This document shows, one piece after another, positions 16,533-36,426 of a stretch of 64,000 bases of DNA. The first letter of the stretch is position 1, and every line of letters begins with the position of its first letter. Origin of the DNA: Panopea generosa (lineage: Eukaryota > Mollusca > Bivalvia > Adapedonta > Hiatellidae). A model generated the notes under the pieces. That model saw only the letters and a list, made by a program, of their open reading frames with translations. It was not told where the DNA came from and did no database searches. Location of the stretch: assembly GCA_029582155.1 (NCBI GenBank), contig CM055897.1, positions 16,529,076 to 16,593,075 of the forward strand, read 5' to 3'. The translations under genes and the position numbers were made by a program.

Positions 16533-16624
16533 GTATAAATCTTCCAAACAGACAGGTGGATTTGTATATTATTACACGTACAAACAAAGTGTCTTTTTAC
16601 TTGCAAAAAAGGGACTTTAAATGG
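16533..16624 (+). other. Candidate 5' exon of the globin gene (ATGG then donor GTAAGT)
   Basis: ATGG at 16621-16624 is followed at once by GTAAGT, a near-perfect splice donor. Joined to the globin acceptor at 34557 it gives ATG GGT TGC TCT, that is MGCSS, in frame with the globin. A TATAAAT box lies at about 16532, some 90 bases upstream, giving room for a short 5' UTR. This is inference: the intron would be about 17.9 kb, and I only scanned by eye for other ATGGGT sites. The others noticed (near 22847 and 28890) lack the AAGT donor extension. Confidence 0.33.
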
Positions 16625-16957
16625 GTAAGTTCTTTATTTGTTTCTCTTTTATATAAGTAATATGTATTTTATCTAAAAAAATACCTTTAAGATTAGAACT
16701 TGTGTATCGAGTTGTTTATATATTCAAAATACAACTATTTCATATGTAAATATATATACATGTATTAAAAGAAAAATAAAAAAAATATATATAAATAAAT
16801 AAAGGTCATTGCTCTAGTCATTACATTATACAGTATAAACATGATAGCCTGAGAATTTATACATACAAATAAATGTTTAAATTACGTGCAATAAAATATG
16901 TCAATAGAGAGGCATATGTATTTGCTTTCACTGTGTCTTCTTTAGATAACGCGCGAG

Positions 16958-17325
16958 TCGGTCTCAATTATCTCAGTCTGTAGCACGTGTGACTATCAAT
17001 CCTAGGGTCGTGAGTTCGAATCCCAGTCCGGCCACAGTCTTCGTGGTGATTGTTATAGGATATTGCGTCTCAATTCTCTGTAAGCACAAATAGTGCGAGC
17101 AGTGCCCGAGGAGTTCCGAATGCGTGATGATTGTTATAGGACATTGCGTCTCATTTCATTCGTCTCTGTTCGCTGATTCAAGTGGGAACGTTATCAGTTA
17201 CTTGTGGAGACGTGCTCGAGTACTGGCTAGCCTTCCAGGATACCAGGAAACAGTGGTTAGGTTAACTGATCGTCTGTTAGCCCTCAATGGCAATAAACAG
17301 ATTGAATATTCAACAAATCAATCAA
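16958..17325 (+). mobile_element. SINE, full length with internal duplication
   Basis: Head TATCTCAGTCTGTAGCACG and B box GAGTTCGAATCCC, then the family body. GTGATTGTTATAGGA and a TTGCGTCTCA segment occur twice (about 17046 and 17127), so a 75-80 bp piece is duplicated. The tail is AATGGCAATAAACAG followed by (CAAT)n-like bases. Confidence 0.85.
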
Positions 17326-33931: not shown

Positions 33932-34557
33932 GTTATATATAATGATACCATAAAGATGTGGGCTCAATTTGATATAAGGCTAGTACTGTAAAAATGCATA
34001 CTCCAACGTTCATACTAACATTGTGAAGTTGTGTGCTCCAACATATGCGCTTTGTGCCTCGGATGGTTATACTTAGTGACGGTAAATGAAGACTCCCACG
34101 GAAGAATCTACTTCAAGCTTTGAAGTCTCCACATAGAAGATACATTTATACTGATGACGCCCTGTGCTCTGAGATCCAAATGTATAGTTTAGGACTTTAT
34201 AGACTTGTGTATATAAATGAAAGATTAGTATATACGTGTGTTATGTTATGAGTGTGTGATTGTGAATGTTGTGTTTTTGCAAATATGTAATAAACTTATG
34301 AAAACTTTAAAGATGTTATTTGTGGCTTAACCTTAAAGATATAAAAACAAACTAAACTAGTTTGTGACAACCCCATCTCCCCAAGTTAAATTTCGGAGGA
34401 AAGAGATTTCATTGCAATACTCAGGACTTACTACGAGACAATAAAATCGGTATAAAACAATTTTAATGAAAACAAATCCCAGATTCCATACGTTGGGACA
34501 TAGGTCAGTGCGTTAAATGCCACCTAGCGGTAACACAATGTTTATCCTACGTTTAAG
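33932..34557. other. Region just upstream of the globin exon
   Basis: Begins with decayed 35-bp units (GTGAAGTTGTGTGCTCCAAC near 34021). No start codon in the globin frame is present here. The last bases TTTATCCTACGTTTAAG serve as the presumed splice acceptor. Confidence 0.5.
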
Positions 34558-36426
34558 GTTGCTCTTCTACAAAACTTCCGGCCAACGCGGTGGATCCTGA
34601 TACAGGGTTGACAGTGGACGAGAAAACTGCAGTCCGGCAATCCTGGAAAAGACTTAACGCACAGTGGGAAAGTAAACATGGTGTTGCTTTCTTTATAAGG
34701 TAATGGGGATAGTTATTATATCTTTAAAACCAACACTAAGTAATGTGAGATTAAAGAGAAAATGTGCACTTTATTTATGTTATTTTAGTCTTAACTTGTT
34801 CAAACAAATTGATGTAACGTTTAGCCTGAATGCGAGCCTTTATATTTAATCCCTTTTTCACCCACGTTTATAAATATTAAACTAGAGTTTTGCTATAATA
34901 TTTCCACCCCCACACACACCCTTCTTCATTAAAAAAAACGGAAAAAAAAAACAAACTAATTAAACTTGTATTTATGAGGAAGCAAACTATAACGGGGAAA
35001 AAAACAACAGAATGTGAGGGTGGGGGTATTATATCCATTATATTTTCACCCAACCCCCTCACCTGTCACGACATCAAATTTTAATATGCCTCAATGGACA
35101 TAAAAAATACGTTTGAGTCATTTATCCAACTTACCTGATAAGAAAAGATGAAAATATAGCCAGTATTATTCACTCCTCACTCCCCCCCCTCTCTCTCTCT
35201 CTCTCTCTCTCTCTCTCTCTCTCTCTCTCTCTCTCTCTCTCTCTCTCTCTCTCTTTCTCTCTCTCTCTCTCTCTCTCTCTCTCTCTCTCTCTCTCTCTCA
35301 CTCTCTCTCACTCATCCACTAATATTTTTTTGCAAAAAATAACACAACCACTTACTATGTTAAAAAAGCATAAAACTTATATTGCTATTGATGCAAAATT
35401 AAAAGAACAGAGCAGAAGAGAGTGTAAAAATAGTATAGCCATTATAGATTCACTCGGTGAATGTTGCTCTAATGCTGTCAAACCTGACCATAACACTACA
35501 TTTAAAGTATGGAATTTTGTTTTACTTTAAGGTTATTCACTAATCAACCGGCCGCAAGGGGATTCTTCAAATCTTTTGAAGGCATGTCTGACACAGACAT
35601 CGCAGATGATCCTAAATTAAAAGCGCACGTGCTCAACTTTGGCAGTAGCGTAGCAACACTGGTTGAGAAGCTGGACGACGCGGCGACACTGGTTGCCCTC
35701 ATCCACAAACTGGCAGAAAGCCATTATGCAAGGGGTATTGACGCCACGTTACACAAGGTAGATTCGCCAGATGAGCTGATTTGATACATAGACGTTTTTA
35801 TTCATTTCGCATTACGCTTAGTTAAATCTTTAAACATGAAATTATGCCTTATTACTTAAATGACATTTCACTTGGAAAACGATCGCTCCTAAATGTAGGG
35901 GAAATTATATACATGTATTTAAACAATGCTGTTTTTGTTGTATGGTATTTGGTTTCACTTTCGACATTCGTTTAGTCATATTGCGATGGCGTCTCCTTGA
36001 GACAGTATTCGGAGTACTGCCACCCTGAAGTAACATGCTCCATGATATTCCAACCACTCACATTACATTGACAAAGGGCCGACCAGACCTACAACTATCC
36101 TCTTACTGTTGATCACCAAGAGAGAAAGCTTCTAGTAGCAATTTTCAAATCTTTGGTATGACCAGACTTGGGATCGAACCCACGTCTTTCGCATGCAAGG
36201 TTACCATTTTTACTGAGTTTGCCAAATCGTATTTTTTTATTTACTGAACAAATCCTAGTAATCCGTATGTATTTTTACAATTTTCTTTCAGATTGCATTA
36301 CAAGAACTGCTATCATATATGAAAGAAACTCTGCCGCTCTCAAAACCTGAAGAAGAAGCCTGGACGAAAACAGCAGGGGTCATCGCAAAGGTTATTGGAG
36401 ATCACGTGGAAGACATTAAAAAATGA
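34558..36426 (+). CDS. Globin, three visible coding exons (5' end incomplete)
   Basis: A haem-binding, oxygen- or ligand-binding globin. Exon a is 34558-34699 (donor GTAATG), exon b 35532-35757 (acceptor TTTAAG, donor GTAGAT), exon c 36292-36426 (acceptor CTTTCAG, stop TGA). The introns fall in phase 2 and phase 0, matching the conserved globin positions B12.2 and G7.0. Visible residues: CD1 Phe in FFKSFEG, distal E7 His in [10 protein letters not shown], proximal F8 His in LAESHYARG, and the helix A Trp in VRQSW. No Met precedes exon a in frame. Its first codons read CSSTKLPAN after an AG acceptor at 34556-34557, so a further 5' exon must supply the start. With a phase-1 exon ending ATGG the protein would begin MGCSS, an N-myristoylation/palmitoylation-like start as known for globin X, and total 168 residues. 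Intron a holds a long CT tract, intron c a SINE. Function beyond globin (oxygen storage, nitrite or redox role) cannot be decided here. Confidence 0.92.
35189..35310. repeat. (CT)n microsatellite in globin intron
   Basis: About 120 bases of almost pure CT inside the first visible globin intron (34700-35531). Confidence 0.97.
35985..36205 (-). mobile_element. SINE of the satellite-parent family in the second visible globin intron
   Basis: On the - strand: head CATGCGAAAGACGTGGGTTC, body CAAAGATTTGAAAATTGC and tail GGTGGCAGTACTCCGAATAC. Globin-tail repeat copies downstream share sequence beginning right after it, at about 36208. Confidence 0.85.

Follow-up and report, generated by a model that had tools for sequence, protein, structure and literature searches.

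The stretch of DNA analysed here, hereafter the window, comprises 64,000 bases (C4:16529076-16593075) of a 1.474 Gb genome in 39 contigs, and carries three core exons of a globin gene on the forward strand. Exon (a) (34558-34699) runs from the second half of a predicted Gly2 codon through CSSTKLPAN up to B12.2, exon (b) (35532-35757) extends without interruption from B12.2 to G7.0, and exon (c) (36292-36426) continues from G7.0 to the stop codon. When joined, the three exons form a 168-aa globin frame that introns interrupt at B12.2 and G7.0, positions assigned by aligning it with Lucina haemoglobin, for which the intron positions are published. Exon (b) alone matched the Pfam Globin family (9.3e-16), and no Pfam family was matched by exon (a) alone. 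Phe CD1, His E7 and His F8, which we take to be the heme residues of the globin fold, align with those of a bivalve nerve haemoglobin, and their presence identifies the gene by sequence as a member of the globin superfamily. All three core exons are intact, and so are their splice sites and the heme residues. The two introns between these exons are 0.83 and 0.53 kb long, and their donors scored 7.05 and 5.77 (donor scores were calculated with textbook donor weights).

The 3′ part of the window contains a large direct duplication (36200-47316 and 52800-64000, about 16.6 kb apart), the larger pieces of which are about 75-91% alike. Within it, at about 52889-53012, lies a broken copy of exon (c) that has a changed acceptor and a stop codon inside its frame. 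The 3′ flank is present in additional local copies at 50.6-52.7 and 55.0-56.1 kb. Minus-strand frames were also duplicated (46141-47828 and 61530-64000); they begin like a signal peptide (MNFTAITLVLCVATLAQA) and contain repeats of Gly/Tyr, of PPPPKPVLVRL and, as long stretches, of Asn/Gly/Phe. The duplicated frames resemble a secreted protein of the shell-matrix type; two of them had no match in Pfam. At the other end of the window, a broken reverse transcriptase fragment is present on the minus strand in two adjoining pieces (10155-10535 and 10618-10899), of which only the first matched Pfam RVT_1 (9.9e-14). Two tRNA-like sequences were found at 711-780 (-) and 402-471 (+). The former passed the Rfam cut-off for tRNA, was assigned the anticodon tta (stop) by ARAGORN and is perhaps a tRNA-derived repeat.

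The best matches of the globin among PDB sequences were the bivalve nerve haemoglobin (8oup, the source of which we take to be Spisula; 96.7 bits) and a Lucina haemoglobin (74.1 bits), and these closest relatives point to a bivalve as the source of the DNA. Searches of viral contigs and of bacterial and archaeal genomes yielded no confirmed relative. In a small tree of nine sequences, which was midpoint-rooted, contained a long neuroglobin branch, drew a long-branch warning from the program and did not include the paralog on contig C6, the window globin grouped with two globins from contig C10, the nerve haemoglobin and Lucina HbII and HbIII (100/99). Within this haemoglobin group the window gene was placed as sister to all other members, weakly supported (86/81), and two single-exon globins of the same genome that start with MGC fell together with neuroglobin apart from the group. 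The terminal branch of the window protein (0.26) was the second shortest in the tree (Lucina HbII, 0.18). The B12.2 and G7.0 introns, the tree grouping and the intron before the core exons discussed below all fit the bivalve intracellular haemoglobin group.

This placement bears on an earlier reading of the same DNA (the sequence-only reading), which had linked the gene to globin X through its putative MGC start. A start of this kind would indeed resemble the dual-acylation start of zebrafish globin X, as given in the accessible parts of PMC7457136. Globin X genes typically have an intron at E10.2, with few losses (accessible parts of PMC7457136, section 15, and PMC3206486), including two published arthropod globin X genes without it (PMC7457136, section 15). 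The window gene lacks the E10.2 intron, its best matches are the bivalve nerve and Lucina haemoglobins, and the tree, which held no globin X sequence, grouped it with them. We therefore did not accept membership in globin X, on the missing intron and the closest relatives, and consider orthology to globin X hardly credible.

Several claims of the sequence-only reading concerning the start of the gene were borne out on inspection. An acceptor AG lies at 34556-34557 (TTTAAG) and is followed by GT TGC TCT TCT ACA AAA CTT CCG GCC AAC, that is, the end of a split codon and then CSSTKLPAN. The reading frame of 34558-34699 contains no Met codon, the next in-frame Met being in exon (b), and an in-frame TAA at 34554-34556 directly precedes exon (a). 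Because of this stop codon and the Met-free exon (a), a working gene needs an upstream coding exon that ends in phase 1. As had been predicted, joining an exon that ends in ATGG to 34558 gives the N-terminus MGCSSTK.

The requirement would not hold if the start codon had been lost, in which case the ancestor started after the intron as the paralogs described below do, exon 1 has no coding sequence and this copy of the gene is dead or on its way to being so. The paralogs do start past the corresponding intron, and the broken exon (c) copy nearby (about 52889-53012) shows that decay occurs at this locus. On the other hand, the core of the gene is intact, as noted above, in exons, splice sites and heme residues, and the window protein has the short terminal branch given above. 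We regard loss of the start codon as quite unlikely.

A candidate for an upstream exon of the required kind was found at 16621-16630 (+), where ATGGGTAAGT, the ATGG GTAAGT named in the sequence-only reading, occurs as its sole exact copy on either strand of the window. It would supply the start codon, the first base of the Gly2 codon and the splice donor. The candidate TATA box, TATAAAT, which had been placed about 90 bases before the ATG, occupies 16534-16540 (+); from its first base to the ATG is 87 bases, a distance that implies a leader of about 55 nt. The candidate exon 1 thus extends over 16565-16624 (+), its start being estimated from the TATA box, and the inferred first intron (16625-34557, +) is 17,933 bases long. 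No further ATG occurs in the 60 bases that precede this one, and the 281 bases around the candidate exon are single-copy in the genome. The donor scored 9.14, the highest score possible for an ATGG exon. Five other ATGG GT sites in the 34.5 kb upstream of the globin scored 7.74, 4.84, 2.97, 1.48 and -2.78, and seven such sites in the next 30 kb upstream scored 4.99 or less, which leaves 16621 with the highest score among the ATGG donors in the 64.5 kb that precede the globin.

The MGC start could nevertheless come from another ATGG exon, either one with a weaker donor nearer to the globin (28896, score 4.84; 22847, 1.48), the one at 5070 (7.74) or one beyond 64.5 kb; the product would again be a membrane globin, but its gene would have another first intron. 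The gene itself uses a donor as weak as 5.77. However, the donors at 5070, 28896 and 22847 are weaker than that at 16621, TATAAA at 55-120 bases upstream and a 56-base leader free of ATG are both missing from all three sites, and 28896 is at the edge of a tandem array. We consider an origin from one of these other exons unlikely.

When exons were not restricted to ATGG, the 34.5 kb offered 20 distinct donors, scoring at least 5.7, at which an exon opened by an ATG could close in phase 1. One start, the ATG at 12570, opens MRYVLWAALFLVFLICDFTLLQCQAS, and an exon at 12570-12648 (+), which consists of this ATG and 26 signal-peptide-like codons and has a weak phase-1 donor, would make the globin a secreted protein. 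This stretch is strongly hydrophobic (11/11 at the core), and its donor at 12648 scored 5.82, similar to the weaker of the gene's own donors. Extracellular globins are known in other animals, for example annelids, according to the accessible part of PMC7771090. However, at least one exon of this type (cut-off, 9 of 11 hydrophobic) was present in 61/150 and 72/150 simulations; since 0.5-0.6 such exons are expected by chance, 12570-12648 is ordinary. In addition, the 200 bases preceding it contain no TATAAA, a signal peptide exon is absent from the three paralogs and from the Lucina genes, and secretion would not account for how well GCSSTK suits acylation. A secreted product is very unlikely in our view; 12570-12648 may be a chance occurrence or the first exon of some secreted product.

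To judge how readily a site like 16621 arises by chance, word counts and simulations were used. ATGGGTAAGT occurred 1383 times on the forward and 1325 times on the reverse strand of the whole genome (1.474 Gb), about once per 1.07 Mb per strand; compared with the reversed control word (1567 and 1943), it was not enriched genome-wide. The genome count predicts 0.032 copies on one strand of 34.55 kb, and 20 of 100 shuffles of the whole window held at least one copy (64 kb, both strands). Markov simulations were modelled on the plus strand upstream of the globin after removal of the large tandem arrays (25.8 kb; 400 runs at each of three orders). An ATGG donor as good as that at 16621 appeared in 4 to 6.25% of runs, a donor passing the laxer cut-off of 7.0 with TATAAA 55-120 bases upstream in 1.25-3.5%, and a donor of at least 5.7 with both TATAAA and an ATG-free leader in 0.25 to 2.25%. 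TATAAA itself is frequent, with 40 occurrences on the plus strand of the 34.55 kb, so about 7% of 65-nt stretches contain one by chance. The 16621 site is moderately above chance. Because its features were chosen after the site had been seen and were tested later, these rates are suggestive but not conclusive.

The interval between 16621 and the core exons contains three tandem arrays, with repeat units of 75 bp (17980-21545, 47.7 copies), 48 bp (27913-28793) and 35 bp (32065-33934). The period of the 75-bp array is a multiple of three, and one plus-strand frame through it is open for up to 335 codons. Six open reading frames within the interval were compared with Pfam; none scored above the cut-off, and two from repeat arrays matched below it. 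We also considered whether the 16621 exon belongs to another gene, as the frame at 17094-17372 seemed to be an exon in common with 8487-8999. This candidate was rejected; similar DNA is present at 13.1-13.4 and 31.5-31.6 kb, and the frame was read as a dispersed tRNA-derived element. The dispersed family has copies at 8516-8669, 13085-13353, 16967-17325 and 31518-31634 (-) and is probably a tRNA-derived SINE. The copy at 17.0 kb is adjoined by GTTCGAATCC, which to us resembles box B, and had no match in Rfam.

Support for a short first exon also came from relatives of the gene in the same genome. Used as a query, exon (a) found two relatives besides itself, on contigs C10 (E 1.2e-4) and C6 (E 0.616), and a third paralog was found by tblastn upstream in the C10 cluster. 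The C6 paralog is weak by exon (a) alone; its exon (b) matched that of the C10 paralog at 2.4e-10 (tblastn). With the paralog acceptors read from sequence, the distance from the acceptor to a conserved Gly-Leu-Thr is 47 nt in the window gene and 36, 44 and 46 nt in the three paralogs, whose start codons are 21, 20 and 1 nt after the acceptor. In published bivalve genes, a pre-coding intron ends 22-29 nt before the ATG in Lucina and 1-2 nt before it in Barbatia and Anadara (accessible part of PMC4732748). These matching acceptor positions, in the paralogs and in the published genes, indicate that the intron before 34558 is probably homologous to the bivalve pre-coding intron, judging by its position. 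The match of the paralog acceptors, which is absent from the sequence-only reading, supports a short first exon more strongly than any other finding.

The same comparison set the window gene apart, as only this gene among the four seems to start on the far side of the intron. A start codon after the pre-coding intron is a habit of the known genes, not a formal criterion, and the window gene departs from it. Two further points were counted against the acylated reading: the three paralogs are not acylated, and a first intron of 17.9 kb is far longer than both the published pre-coding introns (1.2-3.1 kb; accessible part of PMC4732748) and the other introns of this gene. The promoter of the candidate exon can be compared with those of Lucina HbII and HbIII, which have TATA boxes at -36 and -29 and 62-nt leaders, and with one Lucina HbI promoter without a TATA box (same source). 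The genome yielded 16 globin matches, and the N-terminal structure was seen for 6 of them; in five further matches, for each of which 5 kb was read, the first exon was not found.

Gly2, Cys3, Ser or Thr at position 6 and Lys at position 7 favour N-terminal myristoylation and palmitoylation. MGCSSTK is therefore a good putative dual-acylation start, provided that an ATGG exon is used. The 16621 exon is likely spliced to 34558. We propose that exon 1 (about 16565-16624) supplies the leader of about 55 nt and only ATGG as coding sequence, and that splicing of the 17.9-kb intron would let 34558 complete the Gly codon to give Met-Gly-Cys-Ser-Ser-Thr-Lys. The Met would then be removed, Gly2 myristoylated and Cys3 palmitoylated, and the lipids would anchor the heme-binding globin at the cytoplasmic face of the membrane. 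The first intron would be the homologue of the bivalve pre-coding intron, after which the start codons of the other genes lie. That 16621 is used, that the protein is acylated and sits at a membrane, and that it may have a role in protection or signalling are what we infer from these features. The membrane globin proposed in the sequence-only reading thus retains its need for an upstream exon, the acceptor placement, the acylation-type start and the best available donor, and loses its kinship with globin X. On balance we favour, with somewhat better than even confidence, a four-exon globin of the bivalve nerve and intracellular haemoglobin group with an ATGG exon 1 and a predicted acylated, membrane-anchored product.

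If exon 1 is as proposed, the first intron of 17,933 bases contains the 75-, 48- and 35-bp arrays, and the presence of an anchor within the group would be set by the side of one old intron on which the start codon lies. Annotation could miss such an anchor, because the first coding piece is four bases long and separated by about 18 kb from the exon that follows. Both states, anchored and unanchored, seem to exist in a single genome at a matching gene position with one intron between them. It has been suggested that blood globins arose from membrane-bound ancestors through loss of the acylation site (accessible part of PMC7771090, citing Blank and Burmester), and a shift of the start codon over the pre-coding intron offers a concrete, checkable route. 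More tentatively, and as a minority possibility, the pre-coding intron may be what remains of an intron by which the Gly2 codon was split in an ancestral globin anchored to the membrane, such that the window gene keeps the ancestral MG/C arrangement, the paralogs are derived and a start shift across the intron drops the anchor in one step. The one genome fits either direction, a loss of the anchor in the paralogs or its gain in the window gene.

Acylated globins and pre-coding introns are each already known, and their combination would be new; among the open-access literature titles searched, none described a globin whose acylation start is interrupted by a pre-coding intron. In favour of the proposed start, two other globins of the same genome begin with MGC, L001 (C5, minus strand; MGCSPS) and L002 (C15, plus strand; MGCASS). 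Unlike the window gene, they are intronless, each a single open frame from Met (195 and 187 aa), and the best PDB match of L001 was neuroglobin (58.8 bits). They are possibly acylated, and possibly retrocopies or products of intron loss. N-terminal acylation motifs are widespread in globin X-like proteins, arthropod HbL and Platynereis clades II-IV; the accessible parts of the two sources (PMC7457136, PMC7771090) describe no start codon split off after ATGG, and section 15 of PMC7457136 reports an intron in the N-terminal extension of louse globin X.

Bivalve nerve haemoglobin and Lucina HbII and HbIII are the best matches and fall on the same side of the tree as the window gene, and Lucina shares the B12.2, G7.0 and pre-coding introns. 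Lucina differs in that its start codon is 22-29 nt past the pre-coding intron, and the accessible part of PMC4732748 mentions no acylation start. Globin X would resemble the window gene in the putative MGC dual-acylation start and in the predicted membrane location, as in zebrafish (accessible part of PMC7457136), and differs from it in the E10.2 intron, the nearest solved relatives of the window gene being bivalve haemoglobins. By analogy, the start of the window globin may work like that of globin X.
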